Below, piece by piece: positions 48,495 through 60,003 of a stretch of DNA of 64,000 nt. Below the pieces are notes generated by a model. It did not search any database. It was given only the letters and a program-made list of their open reading frames with translations, and had not been told where the DNA came from. The translations under genes were made by a program, and so were the position numbers. The number at the start of each line of letters is the position of its first letter. The stretch's first letter is position 1. This DNA is from Melanopsichium pennsylvanicum. Taxonomy: Eukaryota > Basidiomycota > Ustilaginomycetes > Ustilaginales. The stretch covers positions 496,001-560,000 of the forward strand of contig OAPG01000013.1 of NCBI GenBank assembly GCA_900208305.1, given 5' to 3'.

Positions 48495-48499
48495 CATTG
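48495..48499. repeat. Target-site duplication CATTG (left)
   Basis: CATTG directly before the TG of the 5' LTR, repeated at 57357-57361 directly after the CA of the 3' LTR. Five bp is the usual length for Ty3/gypsy integrases. Confidence 0.95.
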
Positions 48500-49510
48500 T
48501 GTCACGGGAGTGGGTCCCAAGGGAAAGGTCTGCGCAGACCAGAGATGTTGAATCGGCTGAGATCCGGTGGGAGAGCATGTCTCGACGGATCTCAGGGAGA
48601 TCTGGTGGATATTGGTGGGCTCATGGGATTTAAGGTTAGCGCAGGACCGAGAAGTTGAATCGGACGAAATCCGGTGAGAGAGCAGGTCTCAACGGATCTC
48701 ACGGAAATTCGGCGAGTGACAGTGACTCGCCGGATATCGAAGGTATCGACGGCAAGGGGAGCATCTGCGATGGCGGCGACCAACGCCACGCCGGAATGAC
48801 ACGTGGGCCAATCGACGCCCAGGGGGCAACGGAGAGGGAGCACGCGGGCGTGCTCGGAAGCACCCTGCCGAAGGACTAGGGGGCAGTCTTATCGTGCGGG
48901 GGTCCAAGCTCGACGCACGCAGGTCGTACAGTACCGATGGACCTCGCACACGATACATATATATAAATACTCTGTTCCCCGCTATCGGATGAGCGGAAGC
49001 TCATCCACTCTATCTTATATCTCAGTCACACATAGTTGTCAGTACGTCGTACTTACCATACTCTTCACACGTCGCACATCGCAATACCATTTATTGCGAT
49101 CCATATAGTCTGTGTCCCCGTCGGTGAACGGAGAACAACGTATAGACGTCGTCGACACCACAATCGACGCTGTAGCACCTCAACTACAGGCGGAACCTCA
49201 ACCGCGGGCCTGGCACCACAACCAGTCCCTCATAACTCCACCGGCAACGACGGCTGAGGTCTAACCCAGCCATCAGCAGTATCCCGTCGACGTCGTGACA
49301 CTCGCGTCGACCGAGTACCCCGTCCGAGCTTGCCGCGTTACCTCTGTACGGAGTGTCACCAGCGGTCAGCCAATATCCGTCGAGAGATCGCCACTCGCGG
49401 GATTCTCTTCGATATCCGTTGAGGCCAAGCTTAACCGCCGGAACTCACTGAAATCCGGCGAGTCGCGCTTTCTCACGGGAATTCGGATCTCTGGCACGCG
49501 ACCGCTGACA
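48500..49510 (+). repeat. 5' LTR (1,011 bp)
   Basis: Begins TGTCACGGG and ends CCGCTGACA. It contains the promoter (TATA-like run at 48958-48969), a perfect hairpin just below it and several copies of the dispersed GAAATCCG-CGAG module. It matches the 3' LTR except at about four positions, seen near 48644, 48727, 49285 and 49366. Confidence 0.97.
48958..49012 (+). promoter_or_regulatory. LTR TATA box, 5' RNA hairpin and self-primer sequence
   Basis: TATATATAAATA at 48958-48969. 18 bp downstream is an 8-bp perfect stem (GGATGAGC at 48987-48994, GCTCATCC at 48999-49006) closed by the GNRA-type loop GGAA. It overlaps ATCCACTCTA (49003-49012), which is complementary to the presumed primer-binding site after the LTR. 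The transcription start is inferred to lie near 48987-49003. Confidence 0.6.
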
Positions 49511-49511
49511 T

Positions 49512-49521
49512 TAGAGTGGAT
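49512..49521 (+). other. Candidate primer-binding site complementary to the element's own LTR RNA
   Basis: TAGAGTGGAT begins two bases after the LTR end and is the exact reverse complement of 49003-49012. Usual tRNA-primed elements have TGG directly after the LTR, which is absent. Tf1-type elements prime from the 5' end of their own mRNA with an 11-nt match, so this fits self-priming. Confidence 0.55.
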
Positions 49522-49550
49522 CGTACAAGCGACGCCCCAAGTTCACCAAG

Positions 49551-50921
49551 ATGGCCGACTCTGCACTACATGACAGACTCGACCGCCTCATCGCCCTCCT
49601 TGAGCAGCAGCAGGTAGACAATGCCGCACTCAAGGCTCGGCTCGACCAACAGGAGACTCCATCCCCTGGTCGACGAGCTAGGGAGCATGATCTAAGCTCC
49701 CCGACCCGTCGAGCCTCGCAGCAGGCGGATGAGTCCTACCTTGGTGGTCTCGAGACACCCACTCCTGCGACTAGACCACACCCTCGGTCCGTCACCTTCG
49801 ACATTCTCGACCGACGAGCGTACACCGACCAAGAAAAGTACGCTACGCCTACTGGACCTCGGTATGCCAAACCGGTGACCCCGGGGGCATGGACCGGCAC
49901 TGGCAGTGAACAGGACACTCAGCCCCACGCTGCCCTCAAGACTCCATTCCCCAAGCTCGACACTTGCGACATCGATATCTTCATTCTCGAGGCCGACGCT
50001 TGGTTCAAGGCTAATGGTGTGTACGACCATACTTCGATGATCCTACACACGGCAGCTCAGCTCGAGGGCACCGCTCAAGAGTGGTGGAAGGGTAAGCTCC
50101 GCGTCGACCGGCATCGTCAAGGGATGCTCTTCCATGATTGGAGCCACTTCACCACTCGACTCAGGGAGCTGTACAATCAGCGCAGCAACAGGGTCGATGC
50201 CTACAACAAACTCCTAGCGTTGAGGCTTATTACCGACACACCAGGAGCAGCAACGCGACATGTCGAGCAATTCCGAGACCTGGCAGCTCAGTGCCACATG
50301 GAGGACCCTGAGTTTGTCATCGATCTCTTCCGAGGGAGCCTTACTTGCTCACTTCAGGAGAAGTTCGAGCGTAACCCACCTGAAGACCAGTGGGCCTGGT
50401 ACCGGGAGGTCGAGGACATTGATTGCCAGCGTATGCGGCATCAGCAGAATGCTGTCCGCTTCGCCTCAACCCCAGCAATCAGGACTGCTCATACCGAACC
50501 GGGCATTCCCCAGAGAACTGGCTCTCGACCGTTGCCCCCTCATCTGGCACAGAAGCTGCCGGTACGGGAAGCACCACCGAGACCTCGCGACAACCGAAGG
50601 GTCGTCCCCGGCCCGACGACATTTAACAGCAACGCTTGTAGGGTCTGCGGCAAGACCGGGCATTGGCAGCGGAACTGTCCAGACGCCAAGCCAACGGTTT
50701 ACCCGGCTAGACCATCAGGACCACAGATGCAAGCGCACTTGGTGTTGGAGTCGGAGAAACCACAGGACGGCTCACCAGAGGAAGGAGACGGAGCTGAAGA
50801 CCATCGCGAAGACGATGGCGGTCTTGAAGACCACTTTGACCCCAACCTCTTCGCCGACGATCACGACGCAGGCAAGCCCTACCACGAGGACAAGGGAAAC
50901 GACCTTGGAGCGATGCAATGA
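49551..50921 (+). CDS. gag: Gag (capsid-nucleocapsid)
   Basis: 456 residues from the ATG at 49551, 40 bp after the 5' LTR. The N-terminus (about 1-35) is a short Leu/Gln heptad-like helix, followed by a Ser/Arg-rich linker. A retrotransposon capsid region covers about 140-320 (FEADAWFKANGV-like core, then W-W-KGKL and QRSNRVDAYNKLLALR). The nucleocapsid has one zinc knuckle CRVCGKTGHWQRNC (C363-X2-C366-X4-H371-X4-C376), which binds the genomic RNA. The tail is strongly acidic. Its stop overlaps the pol start as ATGA. Confidence 0.95.
   Translation: MADSALHDRLDRLIALLEQQQVDNAALKARLDQQETPSPGRRAREHDLSSPTRRASQQADESYLGGLETPTPATRPHPRSVTFDILDRRAYTDQEKYATPTGPRYAKPVTPGAWTGTGSEQDTQPHAALKTPFPKLDTCDIDIFILEADAWFKANGVYDHTSMILHTAAQLEGTAQEWWKGKLRVDRHRQGMLFHDWSHFTTRLRELYNQRSNRVDAYNKLLALRLITDTPGAATRHVEQFRDLAAQCHMEDPEFVIDLFRGSLTCSLQEKFERNPPEDQWAWYREVEDIDCQRMRHQQNAVRFASTPAIRTAHTEPGIPQRTGSRPLPPHLAQKLPVREAPPRPRDNRRVVPGPTTFNSNACRVCGKTGHWQRNCPDAKPTVYPARPSGPQMQAHLVLESEKPQDGSPEEGDGAEDHREDDGGLEDHFDPNLFADDHDAGKPYHEDKGNDLGAMQ
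50918..50921 (+). promoter_or_regulatory. ATGA stop/start overlap of gag and pol
   Basis: The gag TGA and the pol ATG share ATGA, shifting the frame by -1. No X-XXY-YYZ slippery heptamer precedes it. Coupled termination-reinitiation is the simplest reading. Confidence 0.6.
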
Positions 50922-53900
50922 TGGCATGCATCGCTCTAAGACCGCCTTCGCCATCACCTTGTATATGTCAAGATTGTTCATTATGTTTCTCTGCAGCTTC
51001 CGGTGCCTCAGTACTCGAGCTAGCAGGTACGGTCAACCACCATCCTGCTAGCATTCTCGCCGACACCGGCGCTGCATTGTCTATAGTTTCAGCTCCGTTT
51101 GTTCGCAAGTACTCGATAACCACAAAACCCATAAAAAACAGAACCGTACACGGAGTGACCGGACATTCCCTCACGATCACGAGCGCTGCTGACATCGACG
51201 TAGTCATAGGAGGACAACACCTAGGGATGCTCAAGGTCGCCGTTGCTGACGCTAGCAACTACGATTTCATCCTGGGGTACGATGAACTACGACGCCTACA
51301 GCCAAGGGTCCATTGGGATACTGGACAGCTCGATTTCGGAAAAACCAACGAGATCCGGTCAGACGCGGTCGTTCAAGGGATTTCACCGAAATCCGCCGAG
51401 ACCGGCCGATCTGCCGAATCTCAAGCAAGCTTAGTAGTACATGGCTACGAGTTCGTCGACGCCAACGAGCTCGTTCAGGCGGCACTACGGGATGGCCCCA
51501 TAGGGGTCATGCTAATCAGCGCTCCTCCGACGTCGCTCCCGTCGTTTGGCTTTGTCCCCACGGGAGGCGACAAAGGCATAGAGATGGAAACGACACTAGA
51601 AGAGCCTCCCACTGCCGTCGACATCCCAGCCCCGTACTACCCCCTCAAGGATGTATTCGACGAGGTTGAAGCGGACAAGCTTCCCCCTCACACGAAGCAC
51701 GACTTGCACATCGAGCTACTACCCAGTTCGACGCCACCTCAAGGTCCGCTATATCTCAAGGGCCCTAAGGAGATGGCCGAGCTGAGGAAGTACCTCGAAG
51801 AGAATCTCGAGAAAGGATTCATTTGGCCCTCAAAGAGCCCGGCGCGATCACCCGTCCTTTTCGTGCCTAAGAAGGACGGCGGCCTGCGACTCTGCGTAGA
51901 CTACCGCGGTCTCAACGAGGTCACAGTCAAGAACCGAGCTCCACTGCCTCTAATCGAGGAGCAGCTGTTCCTCCTACGAAAAGCAAAGATCTATACCAAG
52001 CTGGACCTAAAGGCAGCTTACAACTTGGTTAGGATCGCCGACGGGGACAAATGGAAAACCGCGTTTGGTACTCAACTCAGACTGTATGAGTATCTGGTCA
52101 TGCCATTTGGATTGGCAAATGCGCCCGCGCACTTCCAATCGCTCATCAACACCATCTACCGCGACATCATTGGCGTATACGTGGTAGTATACCTTGACGA
52201 CTTCCTGATCTTCAGCGACAACGAGAAGGAACACATCGAGCACGTCAGGACGGTGCTCAGTAGGCTCAAGGTATGGCGGTTATTCGCCAAACTCTCGAAG
52301 TGCGTGTTCCATACCGATACTGTTGAGTTCCTCGGCTACATCATCAAGCCGTCAGGTATCGAGATGGACCCCGACAAGATCAGGACTATCAAGGAATGGC
52401 CGATGCCGGAGTCTATACACGACATCCAACGCTTCCTCGGGTTTGCCAACTTCTATCGCAGATTCATCTCTCACTTTGCACGTATAGCGAGACCGCTCAC
52501 TTCCCTCGTTAAGCCCACAGAGCGATTCAAAAAGTTCGACCTCCCTGACGACGCTCGCGCTGCTTTCCACAAGCTGGTGGAAATGTTCACCACCGCTGGG
52601 GTTCTCAAACACTTCGACTACCATCGTCCTACCCGGTTGGAAACGGACGCAAGCGACTTCGCCCTCGCTGGAGTACTCAAACAAGAGCACGACGGACGAT
52701 GGCACCCGATAGCATTCTACTCGCGCAAGATGGCATTGGCGGAGAAGAACTACGAGATCCATGACAAGGAACTCCTCGCTGTTGTCGTCTGTCTCAACCA
52801 CTGGCGGCACATGCTTGCAGGACTACCTAGTCAGCTCATTATTCTCACTGATCACGAGGCGCTCAAATACTTCAAGTCTCAGCGGAAGATCACAGGTCGG
52901 CAGGCTCGATGGTCAGTGTTACTCGCTGATTTCGACTTTGTACTCCAATACAGACCAGGAGATAAAGCGGGAGAGCCAGATGCGTTGACACGACGAAGTG
53001 ATATGCAGCCGACCGCAGAAGAAGACCTACACAACGTCCGACAGCTGTTACCGGCACGAGTATTTGCCGAGGATGTCGAAAACCGCCGAGTGGACTCAAC
53101 TCGGCGGATTTCACCAAAATTTGCCAAGAAAGAGCTACTTGCCGAATCTCAAATAAATATGCTAAAACCAACGATGTCCGATATCGCGGAGGGAGGGCTG
53201 GTCCAACTCGTAAAGACTTTCCAGCCGCTCGATGCCGAGCTCGCAGAGCTTCATCAGAAGCAACCTTTCGAAGTTAGACATGGCCTGTGGTATCGCGACG
53301 GTTGGCTAGTGGTGCCGCGAGTCACATTACCAGGTAAGAAAGGTCAACGCAACACTCGGAGTGCCGCCGAAGCAAAGGATCGCTTGCTCTTGGTGGAGCA
53401 CCTGAGATACATGGTAATGTCCCAATGCCACGACGGCGCTACCGCTGGCCATGCAGGTCAAGACGCCACCCTCGAGCTCACAAGGCGGCATTATTGGTGG
53501 CCGAATATGGCGGCATGGGTTGCTGACTATGTAGCAAGCTGCCCAGTGTGCGCTCGATATAAAGCACCGCGACACCGACCATATGGCCTTTTGCAGCCGC
53601 TGTCGACGCCGTCAAGACCCTGGAATTCCATCTCGATGGATTTCATTGAAGGGTTACCTAAATCGGAGGGGTATGACTCGATCTTCGTAGTGGTCGACCG
53701 GTTGACCAAATATGCCATCTTAACCCCGACGTACAAGACAATAACGTCGGAGCAGACGGCAAAGATGCTCAAAGACCAAGTTATGTCCCGTTTCGGGGTA
53801 CCGGAGCACATTGTCTCAGACCGCGGCCGACAATTCGTCTCGGCGGCATGGAAAGAGTTCACCGCCAAGCTGGTCATCCACCACTCGCTCAGCACAGCCT

Positions 53901-54682
53901 ACCACCCACAGACGGACGGGCAAACGGAGCGAGTCAATCAAGTTGTCGAGCAGTACCTCCGTATGTACTGCAACTACGAGCAGGACAACTGGGTAACCTG
54001 GCTGCCGATGGCCGAGTTCGTTTACAACAACACGGTCCACAGCAGCATAGGAGTCTCGCCTTTCTTTGCTTGCTACAGGTGGAATCCAAAGTCACACCCC
54101 GATCTCCCAGAACAAGTCGGTGTGCTCGACCCCAAGAGAAAAGAGTTTGCCACCCGAAGAAAAGAATTTACGGAGTATCTACAGGAGCAAATCAGGTACG
54201 CTCAAAGCCGAACCGTTGAGCAATATAACCGCAAACGGAAGGACATCGAGTTCAAAGTTGGAGACATGGTCTACGTCAACCGAAAGAACTGGAAGACAGC
54301 TCGACCCAGTCCCAAACTCGACACAAGGTTAGCAGGCCCGTTCCCCATCCTCGAACGAATCGGCAGAAGAGCATACCGGCTCCAACTCCCAGCAAGTTTG
54401 CGCGTACACGACGTTTTCCATGTCTCGATGCTCGAGCCTCAAAGGGCAAGCTCACTCCCACAGCGCTCCACACTCAAAGTCACGCCGCCCCTACCGGACG
54501 ACACTCTAGAATTCAAAGTAGAGGCTATTGTGGGAAAGCAAAAACAGGGTAGGCAAGTACAGTACAAAGTCCAATGGAGGGGCTACCCCGAGGAGGCAGC
54601 CTCGTGGGAACCGACAGACTGTCTCAACTGCCCAGACCTCATCCGGGAGTATGAGGAATCGGCGGGGGGACGGAGACACTAA
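50918..54682 (+). CDS. pol: Pol: protease, reverse transcriptase, RNase H, integrase, chromodomain
   Basis: 1,254 residues starting at an ATG that overlaps the gag stop by 4 nt. Order: aspartic protease DTGA (Asp49); reverse transcriptase about 265-445 with LDLKAAYN and the YLDD active site (425-428); RNase H from ETDASD (Asp577); integrase with an HHCC finger ending CPVCARYK, and a catalytic triad Asp908, Asp968 and Glu1004 (D,D-35-E); and a chromodomain about 1196-1250 (YKVQWRGYP, WEP). All catalytic residues are present and no stop interrupts. Related ISPK...AESQ peptides at about 155-170 and 730-746, in the linkers before RT and before integrase, come from the same repeated DNA module. 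The chromodomain probably directs insertion to methylated-histone chromatin. Confidence 0.97.
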   Translation: MMACIALRPPSPSPCICQDCSLCFSAASGASVLELAGTVNHHPASILADTGAALSIVSAPFVRKYSITTKPIKNRTVHGVTGHSLTITSAADIDVVIGGQHLGMLKVAVADASNYDFILGYDELRRLQPRVHWDTGQLDFGKTNEIRSDAVVQGISPKSAETGRSAESQASLVVHGYEFVDANELVQAALRDGPIGVMLISAPPTSLPSFGFVPTGGDKGIEMETTLEEPPTAVDIPAPYYPLKDVFDEVEADKLPPHTKHDLHIELLPSSTPPQGPLYLKGPKEMAELRKYLEENLEKGFIWPSKSPARSPVLFVPKKDGGLRLCVDYRGLNEVTVKNRAPLPLIEEQLFLLRKAKIYTKLDLKAAYNLVRIADGDKWKTAFGTQLRLYEYLVMPFGLANAPAHFQSLINTIYRDIIGVYVVVYLDDFLIFSDNEKEHIEHVRTVLSRLKVWRLFAKLSKCVFHTDTVEFLGYIIKPSGIEMDPDKIRTIKEWPMPESIHDIQRFLGFANFYRRFISHFARIARPLTSLVKPTERFKKFDLPDDARAAFHKLVEMFTTAGVLKHFDYHRPTRLETDASDFALAGVLKQEHDGRWHPIAFYSRKMALAEKNYEIHDKELLAVVVCLNHWRHMLAGLPSQLIILTDHEALKYFKSQRKITGRQARWSVLLADFDFVLQYRPGDKAGEPDALTRRSDMQPTAEEDLHNVRQLLPARVFAEDVENRRVDSTRRISPKFAKKELLAESQINMLKPTMSDIAEGGLVQLVKTFQPLDAELAELHQKQPFEVRHGLWYRDGWLVVPRVTLPGKKGQRNTRSAAEAKDRLLLVEHLRYMVMSQCHDGATAGHAGQDATLELTRRHYWWPNMAAWVADYVASCPVCARYKAPRHRPYGLLQPLSTPSRPWNSISMDFIEGLPKSEGYDSIFVVVDRLTKYAILTPTYKTITSEQTAKMLKDQVMSRFGVPEHIVSDRGRQFVSAAWKEFTAKLVIHHSLSTAYHPQTDGQTERVNQVVEQYLRMYCNYEQDNWVTWLPMAEFVYNNTVHSSIGVSPFFACYRWNPKSHPDLPEQVGVLDPKRKEFATRRKEFTEYLQEQIRYAQSRTVEQYNRKRKDIEFKVGDMVYVNRKNWKTARPSPKLDTRLAGPFPILERIGRRAYRLQLPASLRVHDVFHVSMLEPQRASSLPQRSTLKVTPPLPDDTLEFKVEAIVGKQKQGRQVQYKVQWRGYPEEAASWEPTDCLNCPDLIREYEESAGGRRH
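51378..51426 (+). repeat. Dispersed module copy M1 inside pol (protease-RT linker)
   Basis: GGATTTCACCGAAATCCGCC and the following bases up to TGCCGAATCTCAA. It aligns with M2 at most positions and is read in the same frame, giving ISPKSA...AESQ. Confidence 0.75.
53083..53153 (+). repeat. Dispersed module copy M2 inside pol (RNase H-integrase linker), with hairpin
   Basis: GGATTTCACCAAAATTTGCC ... TGCCGAATCTCAAA, preceded by a perfect 9-bp inverted repeat (CCGCCGAGT at 53083-53091 and ACTCGGCGG at 53099-53107, 7-nt spacer). It encodes ISPKFA...AESQ, matching M1. Confidence 0.75.
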
Positions 54683-55122
54683 GCTCAAGAGGATCTTGCG
54701 AGCCGCGATGCATGCCATCACAGGAGAGTAAGATGGTGAGAAGCTCGACAAGGACGAAGCTCGACAAGGACGATGTCGAGCGGCGAAGGTAGAAGGTTGC
54801 AGGAATCGAGATCCGGACAGTGACCCCGACTCAGGGAATTTCCACAAAATCCGCCAAGTACTGCAGAATTCAACGGATCTCAGAAAAAAAAAAAAAACTA
54901 AAAAATCGCGGGGTAACGAGAACCGAAAAGTCACAAAATTCGCCGAGGAATGCATGATCCAAAGGATCTCAGGCCTTAATGGGCGATGCGAGTCGACAAG
55001 TATATTTCTCAGAGTCGTTGCACCTGTTGCACACCGAAAGTCACACAATCAAGCTCACACTAGGTTCAATGGGTAACGAGGCACTGCCATTGCAACAAGT
55101 CGACACAGCCAGCGGGCACAGA
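54683..55122. other. Non-coding stretch between pol and the antisense gene
   Basis: 440 bp with two more copies of the dispersed module (about 54834-54883 and 54929-54972), each ending in GGATCTCAG, and an A-rich run at about 54884-54905. No coding frame was seen. It would be the shared 3' flank of pol and the antisense gene. Confidence 0.65.
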
Positions 55123-56243
55123 CTACTCCGCAGACTCGGGGGCTAACGAAGACCCAGGTACCGAAGGAGGCTCGATATCCTCGAAGGGCGAGCGCATGGA
55201 CCGCAGTCGCCGCTGACGATCGAAGTATTCCTCGATCGTCGTCAGTACTGGCACGCGCCGACCGCGAGGCGAGGCAGACCAAATGATACGCATTGCGTAC
55301 GCCCAGTTTGGGTCTGCCACACCATCCGAGTCACGGTCGAGGCCACGTACCTCCCCCAATCCTCGACCTCCCGCTCCCGTGACGTGAGCTCGCTCGACGC
55401 CACGCTCGCCTCGATGCAGATGGTTAGGAGGGGCGTCGCCAGCGTATACCATCGTTGGCAACGCCCTCTCGGTTTGCACGCACTTCTTGTGGCCGCCCAG
55501 ATGGCAATGCACACAAGCGCGCGGAGTTCGGCCCTTGCCACCGGCAGAAAGCACGTCAGCGAAGGCCGACGGGAAACAACTGGGACGAAAAAAAGGGAGA
55601 ACCAGAGTCAGCAGCGAGTATCGAACGTAGAAGGGGGCAATAGTACTTACGGTACACCAAGCTTGGCGCAGCGGGCGCATTGCCAGCTCGGCCAAGGCAT
55701 GCAGCCCTCGGTCAGCCGAAGGAGGACCAGCCGATGGAGGCGACCAGCCGTCACGGAACCCTCCGATACCACCCAAGCAGGGGGCCAGGCCCCGCACGCC
55801 ACGAACACCAGCAACACCGGAGCGATAAGTGACTCCGCCCACAGCGCAATCTCGAGGTAGTTGGGCACATGAGGCCCAACGAGCGGAGCGACAATCCTCC
55901 CTACAACCTACTCTTCCACCTCCATCGCCTCCAGCCGCTCTTCCTCCTCTTCCGTGGCGTCGTTCCCCAGGAACAACGGTTCCAGTGGTCGCGGCGTCGC
56001 CCGCAACGCGACGAGCTGCTCGGCAGCAACAATTTCGATGGGCTGCTCGCCAGCAGCAGGGGACGACGGAGTTGTGGCCTCGAGGCCGGCAGCCGAAAGT
56101 GTCGCCACTGCCCGAGTGGCAGGATCTCGTTTGCGAAGCCTGGCGCTACGACGCACAGGCTCGTCTGCCCAAAAGGCAGGCATTTGTGTCGACGCTGGTC
56201 GCGACGACGCAGCGGAAGTGGCAGTGTTTGAAGTGCTGGGCAT
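55123..56243 (-). CDS. Antisense spliced gene in the retrotransposon, Zn2Cys6-like; one in-frame TAG
   Basis: Opposite in direction to gag-pol. Exon A 56243-55651, intron 55650-55580 (71 nt: GTAAGTAC, branch CTGAC, seven-T tract, CCCAG) and exon B 55579-55123. Splicing keeps the frame. It builds C-X2-C-X6-C-X20-C-X2-C-X7-C (residues 189, 192, 199, 220, 223, 231), a Gal4-type Zn2Cys6 pattern with a long middle loop. Neither exon holds the motif alone. Near the N-terminus is a basic RRSARLRKRD (31-40), then an acidic stretch. Codon 112 is TAG (55910-55908). It could be a nonsense mutation, or lie in a weak in-frame 69-nt GT-AG interval (55919-55851). A TTAAATA box sits about 60 bp upstream. I do not recognise the family; a DNA-binding regulator is inferred. 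The gene may be disabled in this copy. Confidence 0.6.
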
Positions 56244-56303
56244 TGTGATGTTTTGGGAAACGCTGTTGGTGGAAGAACAATTTGGGGAAACACCCGCCGA
56301 CCC

Positions 56304-56345
56304 TATTTAAGCCTCAACGGAGCTCGGCTCTTGAAGGGGGGGTAG
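56304..56345. promoter_or_regulatory. Purine tract for plus-strand priming and TATA-like box of the antisense gene
   Basis: GAAGGGGGGGGTAG (about 56332-56345) directly precedes the 3' LTR, as a polypurine tract must. On the other strand TTAAATA (56310-56304) lies about 60 bp before the antisense ATG. Confidence 0.6.
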
Positions 56346-57356
56346 TGTCACGGGAGTGGGTCCCAAGGGAAAGGTCTGCGCAGACCAGAGATGTTGAATC
56401 GGCTGAGATCCGGTGGGAGAGCATGTCTCGACGGATCTCAGGGAGATCTGGTGGATATTGGTGGGCTCATGGGATTTAAGGTTAGCGCAGAACCGAGAAG
56501 TTGAATCGGACGAAATCCGGTGAGAGAGCAGGTCTCAACGGATCTCACGGAAATTCGGCGAGTGACAGTGACTTGCCGGATATCGAAGGTATCGACGGCA
56601 AGGGGAGCATCTGCGATGGCGGCGACCAACGCCACGCCGGAATGACACGTGGGCCAATCGACGCCCAGGGGGCAACGGAGAGGGAGCACGCGGGCGTGCT
56701 CGGAAGCACCCTGCCGAAGGACTAGGGGGCAGTCTTATCGTGCGGGGGTCCAAGCTCGACGCACGCAGGTCGTACAGTACCGATGGACCTCGCACACGAT
56801 ACATATATATAAATACTCTGTTCCCCGCTATCGGATGAGCGGAAGCTCATCCACTCTATCTTATATCTCAGTCACACATAGTTGTCAGTACGTCGTACTT
56901 ACCATACTCTTCACACGTCGCACATCGCAATACCATTTATTGCGATCCATATAGTCTGTGTCCCCGTCGGTGAACGGAGAACAACGTATAGACGTCGTCG
57001 ACACCACAATCGACGCTGTAGCACCTCAACTACAGGCGGAACCTCAACCGCGGGCCTGGCACCACAACCAGTCCCTCATAACTCCACCGGCAACGACGGC
57101 TGAGGTCTAACCCAGCCATCAGCAGTATCCTGTCGACGTCGTGACACTCGCGTCGACCGAGTACCCCGTCCGAGCTTGCCGCGTTACCTCTGTACGGAGT
57201 GTCACCAGCGGTCAGCCGATATCCGTCGAGAGATCGCCACTCGCGGGATTCTCTTCGATATCCGTTGAGGCCAAGCTTAACCGCCGGAACTCACTGAAAT
57301 CCGGCGAGTCGCGCTTTCTCACGGGAATTCGGATCTCTGGCACGCGACCGCTGACA
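56346..57356 (+). repeat. 3' LTR (1,011 bp)
   Basis: Same length and ends as the 5' LTR, with about four base differences, followed by the CATTG duplication. Confidence 0.97.
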
Positions 57357-57361
57357 CATTG
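57357..57361. repeat. Target-site duplication CATTG (right)
   Basis: Direct repeat of 48495-48499 at the right end of the retrotransposon. Confidence 0.95.
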
Positions 57362-58866
57362 TTTCAACCTGCATGAGTGGTTTGACTTTTATGTTCTCAG
57401 ACACTGATAAGTGCTTGTGTTGTTCATCTGATTGCAAATCACACAATAAAAAGCTTGTTATTCTATTATGTGAGAAATGAGCCAATTGTTATGCTAGGGG
57501 CTTAAAAGTCCAGGGCTGAGGTATTGCAATTGGCCATCAAGCCCCCAATGCACCATGTCAGGAACCGCTGTGTCAGACTTGAGCTCTGCTATTGCCACAC
57601 TACTGACAGACTAACAACTGTAACGCAAGGTACTGAAAAAACAAGAAAATATAGTGAAGAATGGATGAGCTTCCGCTCCTTCTCATTGGCCAGCAACAAG
57701 GTATATATATCTGGCAGCTCTCCAGGAAGCTGCCCCTGAACCACCCTACCACTTATACTCCTACAGCCAATGTGGCAGTGCCCTTTCCTGTGGACAAGGC
57801 CCCAGCGCTTTGTGTGGGCAAGGCCTAAGTGCCATTGTCCCCCTATCTGACTCAATTGGAGCTTGCACCCTAGTCTGATGGCGGCAAGCACCATTCCCAA
57901 CGGCGTCAATCACCCTTCCTGTGGCAGCAATGGTGTTGCTCTATTGTTTTGCAGCCTCCTTGCTGTTGTCTGGGTGCAGAGCACAAACGTAGCCAAAGAG
58001 CTGGCTCTTTGCGTATGTTAGCTCCATGTACACAAGCAGCCAATTCTTTGCATATGCTGGTACTTAGAGAAATTCCAACTCTCAGCATGTGCAACGCCCA
58101 TTCCTTTTGCGTGCACTGACTGTGAGAGCGCATTAAACCCACACTCATTGCATACCCTGGCCTGCACCTGTAACAACAGGCACCAGGTTGCTGCATTACC
58201 ATATGATTGCAGCGGTTGACAATATGCTAGATATGGAGACGTTGGAAACAACTTGTAAGGTGACAACTAAGAGCATGAATTGTAGAGTGGATGAGTCCTG
58301 CTCCTCCACAACTGGCACAACTATGCCCTTATATGTTATGGCCATCCTGTTCCTCATCTTACTCCTAGTTCCTCATATTGCACTATACTCAAACCTGGAC
58401 CCTGTGCTTATCAGTACTGACTCCCAAAATCAGTGACTGACAGCAATTGAGCCTCATATGTGCTATGCTATCTGCCTAATTCTTCCGTACCAGCTGGAAC
58501 CCCAGTATACTGTAAAAAGACTCTCAATAGTCCCTGTTCCTTATCTACAGCATTTGGCAGATTCCCAACCAAGTTTGGCTAGAACTCCCTATCTTATTGG
58601 AAGTCACATTGAAACCCAATAAAACTAAGAGTTTTATCTGGCTTGGTGTTTTGCGCCCCAGTAGCACTCTGCTTCTAAAAAAATGTAACAGCTGTGTTCC
58701 TGTTATATCAATACCATCTGACCTCCTTCATTGTGCTTGCCTCCCTAGCACATTGGTGCATGTATATACAGAACCTTGAACCCCATGCTTACAAATGCTG
58801 ACTATCTGGGTCAGTCAGTGACTGGCAGCCAGCCACAAGCATGCAATAACATTGACCAAGATGTAC
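57362..58866. other. CpG-poor, gene-free DNA right of the retrotransposon
   Basis: 1.5 kb with very few CG dinucleotides and no supported frame. It continues the 47665-48494 stretch. A decayed LTR trace lies near 57655-57712. Confidence 0.6.
57655..57712 (-). repeat. Possible decayed LTR trace
   Basis: TGGATGAGCTTCCGCTC (57662-57678) followed by GTATATATAT matches the minus-strand promoter part (stem side, loop, TATA) of the LTR family here. The sequence on either side no longer aligns by eye. Confidence 0.35.
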
Positions 58867-58871
58867 CATAC
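58867..58871. repeat. Target-site duplication CATAC (left)
   Basis: CATAC directly before the insertion, repeated at 60004-60008. Confidence 0.92.
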
Positions 58872-60003
58872 TGTCAGCGGTCGCGTGCCAGAGATCCGAA
58901 TTCCCGTGAGAAAGCGCGACTCGCCGGATTTCAGTGAGTTCCGGCGGTTAAGCTTGGCCTCAACGGATATCGAAGAGAATCCCGCGAGTGGCGATCTCTC
59001 GACGGATATCGGCTGACCGCTGGTGACACTCCGTACAGAGGTAACGCGGCAAGCTCGGACGGGGTACTCGGTCGACGCGAGTGTCACGACGTCGACGGGA
59101 TACTGCTGATGGCTGGGTTAGACCTCAGCCGTCGTTGCCGGTGGAGATATGAGGGACTGGTTGTGGTGCCAGGCCCGCGGTTGAGGTTCCGCCTGTAGTT
59201 GAGGTGCTACAGCGTCGATTGAGGTGTCGACGACGTCTATACATTGTTCTCCGTTCACCGACGGGGACACAGACTATATGGATCGCAATAAATGGTATTG
59301 CGATGTGCGACGTGTGAAGAGTATGGTAAGTACGGCGTACTGATAACTATGTGTGACTGAGATATAAGATAGAGTGGATGAGCTTCCGCTCATCCGATAG
59401 CGGGGAACAGAGTATTTATATATATGTATCGTGTGCGAGGTCCATCGGTACTGTACGACCTGCGTGCATCAAGCTTGGACCCCCGCACGATAAGACTGCC
59501 CCTAGCCCTTTGGCAGGGTGCTTCCGAGCACGCCCGCGTGCTCCCTCTCCGTTGCCCCCTGGGCGTCGATTGGCCCACGTGTCATTCCGGCGTGGCGTTG
59601 GTCGCCGCCGTCGCAGATGCTCCCCTTGCCATCGATACCTTCGATATCCGGCGAGTCACTGCCACTCGCCGAATTTCCGTGAGATCCGTCGAGACCTGCT
59701 CTCTCACCGGATTTCGTCCGATTCAACTTCTCGGTTCTGCGCTAACCTTAAATCCCATGAGCCCACCAATATCCACCAGATCTCCCTGAGATCTGTCGAG
59801 ACATGCTCTCCCACCGGATCTCAGCCAATTCAACATCTCTGGCCTGCGCAGACCTCTTCCTTGGGACCCACTCCCGTGACACTATCCGTTGAGGCCAAGC
59901 TTAACCGCCGGAACTCACTGAAATCCGGCGAGTCGCGCTTTCTCACGGGAATTCGGATCTCTGGCACGCGCAGACCTCTTCCTTGGGACCCACTCCCGTG
60001 ACA
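58872..60003 (-). mobile_element. Solo LTR of the same family with an internal inverted rearrangement
   Basis: 1,132 bp between CATAC duplications, minus orientation. 58872-59881 is a full 1,010-bp LTR. One base later, 59883-59970 (88 bp) is an inverted copy of the LTR's own 3' end. 59971-60003 (33 bp) then repeats the LTR's first 33 bp. The LTR differs from those of the complete element at many scattered positions, so it is an older or different subfamily copy. Confidence 0.9.

Follow-up and report, generated by a model that had tools for sequence, protein, structure and literature searches.

Can a retrotransposon maintain an intron-containing gene of its own on the strand opposite to gag-pol, and what might the product of such a gene do? 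The question is raised by a locus of the smut fungus Melanopsichium pennsylvanicum (Ustilaginales; assembly GCA_900208305.1, contig OAPG01000013.1, positions 496,001 to 560,000; this whole stretch of 64,000 nucleotides is referred to as the window, and positions are given in its coordinates). Here, a long terminal repeat (LTR) retrotransposon of the chromovirus type (family 1) contains an antisense frame between the stop codon of pol (54682) and the start of the 3' LTR (56346), which a first-pass annotation of the DNA letters had interpreted as a spliced Zn2Cys6-like regulator gene captured from the host. The whole genome was searched (21.1 Mb, 61 contigs). Judged from the sequences, the frame almost certainly represents a real, coding, spliced gene: its exons keep the reading frame and the splice sites, the product is conserved across genera, and the gene is not needed in cis.

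Structure of the antisense gene

The following features were found on the strand opposite to gag-pol:

55651..56243, minus strand: exon 1 of the antisense gene, 593 nt, ATG at 56243; broken in the window copy; homologues in other smuts
55580..55650, minus strand: intron, 71 nt, GTAAGT...CTGAC...CCCAG; site and phase shared with family 2
55123..55579, minus strand: exon 2, 457 nt
55480..55679, minus strand: six-cysteine region including the intron, with two cysteines in exon 1 and four in exon 2 (alignment codons 181-245; cysteines invariant in the six-sequence alignment A2); most constrained part of the gene, ratio of nonsynonymous to synonymous substitution rates (dN/dS) 0.12
55908..55910, minus strand: in-frame stop at codon 112 of the window copy
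56304..56310, minus strand: TATA-like box TTAAATA, located 5' of the antisense ATG and identical in 31/31 family-1 copies

The frame, its location between pol and the 3' LTR of a chromovirus, and the 71-nt intron with its donor, branch and acceptor motifs were thus present as the first-pass annotation had described them, and the splice sites are kept among the copies. Joining of the exons yields the spacing C-X2-C-X6-C-X20-C-X2-C-X7-C, which had been attributed to the spliced product. Reading into the intron encounters a stop at the second codon; unspliced RNA would therefore give a protein truncated just before the third cysteine. The structure of a spliced gene was confirmed, but the frame of the window copy itself is interrupted at codon 112, a stop that the earlier description did not mention. 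The TATA-like box exists as claimed; however, three family-2 copies examined showed no TTAAATA upstream of their gene, and the box is for this reason weak evidence.

Splicing pattern and selection among the family-1 copies

The genome search with the family-1 gene gave at least 42 matches, fetched as 39 loci; 33 of these (L009-L041) were aligned and six partial loci were omitted. Splice structure was counted in 31 copies (without L040 and L041, which have a differing 5' end), and codon analyses were based on 29 copies, the window copy included (without L032 and L039, which leave the element within exon 2). Exon 1 measured 593, 605 or 614 nt, lengths that are all equal modulo 3, in each of the 31 copies, and exon 2 measured 457 nt in all but L032 and L039, while the intron ranged from 70 to 93 nt, with 13 lengths represented; GT was retained at the donor site in 30 of 31 copies and AG at the acceptor site in all 31. 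Since the length changes amount to few events, the frame-keeping exon lengths alone are modest evidence. The six-cysteine spacing was retained in 28 of 29 copies, and 16 of the 29 were free of internal stops. The earlier argument that a motif restored by splicing exceeds chance expectation gains from the constant frame of exon 1, the preserved splice sites and the retained spacing.

The pattern of substitution points in the same direction. Over the 29 copies dN/dS was 0.29 (mean dS 0.194, dN 0.056), with 0.25-0.38 as the range of a codon bootstrap on 10 of them; by consecutive parts of the gene, the values were 0.36 (codons 1-120), 0.35, 0.12 (codons 181-245, the six-cysteine part), 0.22 and 0.37. 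A comparison of dN/dS among copies had been proposed in the first-pass annotation, with neutral evolution as the outcome that would speak against its claim; the overall ratio and the low value at the cysteines are those of purifying selection, which together with the relatives in other smuts argues for the claimed protein-coding, spliced antisense gene. In the seven copies in which it could be set beside the 978 nt of pol that precede the stop (seven of eight pol-reaching loci; L006 gave no pol match), the gene had a dN/dS of 0.39 versus 0.45 for pol. In a frame test that took the type of mutation into account, variants present in at least three copies gave a ratio of 0.36 in the gene frame (n=205), compared with 1.29 and 2.24 in the remaining antisense-strand frames and 1.31 and 2.51 in two frames of the opposite strand; the gene-frame ratio for single-copy variants was 0.50 (n=114). 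The exon/intron pattern of the copies, the cross-species relatives, the frame test and dN/dS led us to reject the origin of the motif from a random frame.

Of the 114 single-copy variants in the gene (copies L009-L038), 51 were CpG transitions, which suggests decay of methylated DNA.

Relatives in other smuts

Two database searches recovered, besides proteins of M. pennsylvanicum, relatives from Ustilago sp. UG-2017a, U. trichophora and U. hordei and three further database proteins, with 34-55% identity over the matched part:

Ustilago sp. UG-2017a: P0026 (cluster of 75 members), P0032
U. trichophora: P0027
U. hordei: P0028, P0030, P0031
further database relatives: P0029, P0033, P0034

In an alignment of six sequences (A2: four from M. 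pennsylvanicum, P0026 and P0027) all six cysteines were invariant and the motif CMPWPSWQC was common to the sequences; the six cysteines are also present in P0031 and P0032. P0028 and P0030 do not show the six and look differently spliced. The proteins P0029, P0033 and P0034 all terminate at LG(I/V)P, precisely where the unspliced frame would stop, which suggests the same intron site in other species. The U. trichophora protein P0027 and a pol protein (P0040) are each encoded on a contig of 553,710 bases; this suggests linkage of the two, though it is no proof.

Database annotation splices the gene in conflicting ways among closely related copies (P0005, P0006, P0011, P0014, P0016). One database protein, P0025 (MEPE_05452), fuses the beginning of the antisense gene of family 1 with a pol end resembling that of family 3 and is probably an annotation running across two elements.

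Gene-bearing and gene-less elements in the same genome

A second family with pol approximately 68% identical to the window pol and LTR pairs 99.5-99.9% identical (five loci) carries its gene in the same place, antisense between pol and the 3' LTR, with 440 codons including the stop, one 71-nt intron at the family-1 site and the spacing C-X2-C-X6-C-X18-C-X2-C-X7-C. Five family-2 copies were tried: L048 and L049 were open and complete, L050 was open but had lost one of the six cysteines, L051 contained a stop, and L053 could not be joined; in addition, L052 holds part of the gene only, and in L054 the gene is split by an insertion. Copies L048-L050, whose LTRs are near-identical, are short-pol derivatives that lack about 580 pol residues (approximately 602-1182) and still have the antisense frame open.

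Conversely, two family-2 loci (L093, L094) have lost the gene through a deletion of approximately 1.37 kb with CCAC at both edges. As the last gene codons persist at the junction of both loci, the gene-less state was rejected as the ancestral one. A 221-nt query spanning this junction matched 20 places at 99-100% identity over all or all but one base, and found six gene-bearing loci as flank pieces (including L052 with its partial gene). Within family 2 the gene-less derivative thus outnumbers its gene-bearing relatives by 20 to 6; because copies without the gene have multiplied, the gene is not needed in cis. The excess fits release from a restraint, help in trans or dispensability alike.

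A third chromovirus family was recognized inside the family-2 copy L054 (L054 1400-3300; pol identity 44%), with an open frame containing CYACVCAGVACERAGGDLRCRRCQGHHGQPC opposite pol, before the 3' LTR. From 34 fetched copies a gene of four exons and three introns was predicted; the whole predicted frame was open in 18 of 34, exon 1 being unsettled in a divergent group. After the rearranged copy L080 had been dropped, exons 2-4 were open in 30 of 33 copies, the six cysteines were present in all 33, and two nonsense changes were observed compared to 8.5 expected. Taking all variants together, the frame ratio was 0.66; single-copy variants gave 0.61. The intron sites differ from those of families 1 and 2; common descent with these families is therefore not established. 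In family 5 (L091, L092), the six-cysteine motif was not found by a simple pattern on both strands of stretches in which parts of other elements are also present.

The SH3 domain of pol (PF24626) was located at 95 places in the genome. Within 3 kb downstream and in antisense orientation, at least 31 of them are followed by the family-1 gene, at least 4 by the family-2 gene, at least 36 by the family-3 gene and at least 17 by the gene-deleted family-2 junction, whereas 7 had nothing among the matches listed (counts are lower bounds and include partial genes). Hence, at least 71 of 95 pol ends carry such an antisense gene, with family 2 (at least 4 with, at least 17 without) as the exception.

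Diversity and recombination of the gene

The family-1 gene is far more variable than the LTR part and the pol piece compared with it. Along the 29 copies, the mean pairwise difference was 0.01-0.02 in the LTR part, jumped to 0.14 at 56304-56233, remained at 0.06-0.11 in the gene and was 0.04-0.07 behind it; the diversity at 56304-55115 is several-fold above that of the LTR part or of the compared pol piece and has a sharp edge near the LTR. In 34 full-length places the pol piece shared 97-100% identity with the window, whereas among the matches listed the gene was 85-100% identical over matches of any length, short scraps aside. As 54 of 182 neighboring informative pairs failed the four-gamete test, the family-1 alleles recombine. 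In family 3 the contrast was slight (pol piece 97-100%, gene 94-100% in the longer matches). The family-1 diversity is most plainly accounted for by old alleles on a backbone that spread recently, the alleles being maintained by selection or introduced through template switching.

Identity of the six-cysteine domain

Fungal Zn2Cys6 clusters have the spacing C-X2-C-X6-C-X5-12-C-X2-C-X6-8-C, as quoted in the first-pass annotation. Compared with this linker range of 5-12 residues, families 1 and 2 (20 and 18 residues) lie outside and family 3 (8 residues) lies inside, the latter with a tail that by eye is charged and looks helical. The proposed Zn2Cys6 regulator identity was not borne out: no significant Pfam match was obtained, and PF00172 matched family 1 over just 12 residues (E value 5.3) and had no match in the family-2 and family-3 pieces scanned. 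The gene product resembles this cluster in its six cysteines arranged in two CxxC halves and, in family 3, in their spacing; it differs in the lack of a significant profile match and, in families 1 and 2, in the long linker. The proposed capture of a host regulator likewise did not find support, as no host parent gene was found and the matches listed in this genome all lie in element families. Weak PDB profile matches to bromodomains (best E value 0.14) and weak Pfam matches to RHS and C1_1 were judged to be due to chance.

Possible function of the product

Slightly favored over its alternatives taken together, on what the sequences offer, is a trans-acting nuclear accessory protein that would regulate the sense expression of its own element. 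For the proposition of a nuclear nucleic-acid-binding regulator acting in trans, the case may be called evenly balanced; that the product restrains rather than helps the element is a tentative suggestion and on the doubtful side. An antisense promoter at or near the edge of the 3' LTR would read the gene, splicing would complete the six-cysteine and probably zinc-binding domain, and the N-terminus, basic by eye, would bring the protein to the nucleus. There it would act in trans on sense expression of the element, with restraining or timing more likely than driving, in the manner of HBZ for human T-cell leukemia virus type 1 (HTLV-1). The intron would survive retrotransposition because the mobile sense RNA carries the complement of the intron and cannot be spliced there.

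Several observations weigh against this reading. Transcription and splicing are predictions from sequence, and 13 of the 29 family-1 copies contain one or two internal stops. In the family-1 frame test, variants in exactly two copies showed no constraint (1.06, n=40), and the mirror frame on the opposite strand had a ratio of 0.47 for variants in at least three copies: it also looks constrained because its third positions coincide with those of the gene frame, which is preferred in family 1 because the cross-species match is in that frame. For family 3, where variants in at least three copies gave 1.01 (n=61), that is no constraint, and the mirror frame gave 0.74 over all variants, selection is for these reasons less clear than for family 1. 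Pfam and PDB profile searches with the antisense proteins gave no significant match, the AlphaFold model was poor (predicted local distance difference test score 38.8), and the success of the gene-less copies is also compatible with plain dispensability.

The product could instead counter RNA interference (RNAi), DNA methylation or chromatin silencing by the host. The genome possesses one Piwi match, three loci that match RNA-dependent RNA polymerase and two that match DNA methylase; the 51 CpG transitions among 114 single-copy variants are what decay of methylated DNA would give, and a protein facing changing host defenses could be diverse, as the family-1 gene is. Such an anti-silencing role is nevertheless unlikely: the Pfam and PDB searches revealed no resemblance to a known suppressor, and gene-less copies have multiplied, though help in trans is possible. 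Improbable to a similar degree is a helper of the replication cycle that would act in trans in nuclear import, RNA export or integration. For the plant antisense genes, the available part of a review (PMC7264820) suggests functions comparable to those of retroviral accessory proteins, and the pol-deleted family-2 copies retain an open gene; the gene-deleted copies, however, are numerous and near-identical over the junction, so that any need for such help is not in cis. A genuine Zn2Cys6 transcription factor acquired from the host would be compatible with a regulatory role, and the six cysteines in two CxxC halves as well as the family-3 spacing and tail would suit it; given the 12-residue PF00172 match, the linkers of 18-20 residues and the absence of a host relative among the matches listed, we regard this origin, too, as having a minor chance.

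Disfavored, and very improbable in our estimate, is the possibility that the antisense RNA alone matters, by sense-antisense pairing or small interfering RNA, with the frame being incidental. Noncoding antisense RNAs exist in other elements (PMC7264820, available part), an antisense RNA takes part in copy-number control of Ty1 (PMC5389150, available part), and the host possesses RNAi genes; but the coding constraint, strongest at the cysteines, the frame-keeping exons and the protein conservation across genera need a protein. A more speculative reading, which we hold to be quite improbable, is that the antisense gene might be a specificity cassette like the repressor that sets the immunity group of a temperate phage, with old, diverged and recombining alleles kept on an otherwise uniform backbone and gene-losing copies that escape and burst.

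Comparison with known antisense genes

Reports of antisense genes in LTR elements go back to the 1990s, with no function settled so far, and genes at this place are already known from plant elements and from Boty. The available parts of the literature review them for plants (PMC7264820) and note one for Boty of Botrytis (PMC8365987). The antisense product of Grande is described as nuclear, with a promoter of its own (PMC7264820, PMC11963269), and 97% of Retand clusters are stated to have an antisense gene with a possibly DNA-binding domain (PMC11963269). The plant Ty3 genes of the aORF-3R class (gene23 of Grande, RIRE2, Retand with a TRP28 domain) share with the smut gene the antisense orientation to gag-pol and the site between pol and the 3' LTR, as far as the available text describes them. 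Three features of this class were found in M. pennsylvanicum, and an antisense promoter of its own, a fourth, is predicted for the smut gene: found were the placement in the window element, family 2 and family 3, the presence in most copies (at least 71 of the 95 PF24626 pol ends), and a conservation like that of gag-pol, here represented by the pol end (0.39 versus 0.45 in the same seven copies). In contrast to the plant genes, which have other hosts and encode another protein, the smut gene belongs to a chromovirus and has conserved introns and a six-cysteine region; the available sections of PMC7264820 and PMC11963269 make no mention of introns. In a survey of fungal chromodomain Gypsy elements (PMC2864245), a figure legend marks an additional open reading frame whose function is unknown; it resembles the present case as an extra frame in the same broad element group, but its strand, splicing and sequence are not stated and Ustilago is not mentioned in the part of the survey available.

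No earlier report of the gene in smuts was found among the open-access papers listed. The brtn gene of Boty was reportedly described by Zhao et al. in 2011. It, too, is an extra gene lying antisense in an LTR element of a fungus, with the difference of an ascomycete host (Botrytis cinerea), a comparison made by the description in the available parts of the citing papers alone (PMC7264820, PMC8365987).

HBZ mRNA of HTLV-1 is spliced. The likeness of this antisense gene to the smut gene is an analogy, that of an antisense gene with a nuclear regulatory product; HBZ is a basic leucine zipper protein of an animal retrovirus, and no sequence relation is claimed. According to the available account, its product weakens the activation of sense transcription of the virus, and its nuclear localization is noted in the available part of PMC11963269.

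As far as the open-access papers listed can tell, four things are new: the gene in smut chromoviruses, the conservation of its introns, its six-cysteine product and a natural derivative that lacks it. They suggest that an LTR element is able to carry an intron-bearing gene through reverse transcription by placing it in antisense. The natural variation provides test material for its function: three gene-bearing families, a multiplied gene-less derivative, short-pol derivatives with the gene, and alleles much more divergent than the pol piece and LTR stretch compared with them.

The element in the window

The chromovirus that carries the gene is complete and flanked by a 5-bp target duplication, CATTG, at 48495-48499 and 57357-57361:

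48500..57356, plus strand: complete family-1 chromovirus, LTR to LTR, with gag, protease, reverse transcriptase, RNase H, integrase, SH3 and chromo domains
48500..49510, plus strand: 5' LTR
49551..50921, plus strand: gag (PF03732 and CCHC knuckle)
50918..54682, plus strand: pol with chromodomain, stop at 54682 (PF00078, PF17917, PF00665, PF24626, PF00385)
56333..56345, plus strand: polypurine tract GAAGGGGGGGTAG directly before the 3' LTR; similar tract in family 2
56346..57356, plus strand: 3' LTR

The element is young; its LTRs of 1011 nt each show four mismatches. Just downstream of it, at 58857-59970, lies an inverted copy of the LTR (97-98% identity), at the end of which an 88-nt piece of the LTR is found in direct orientation.
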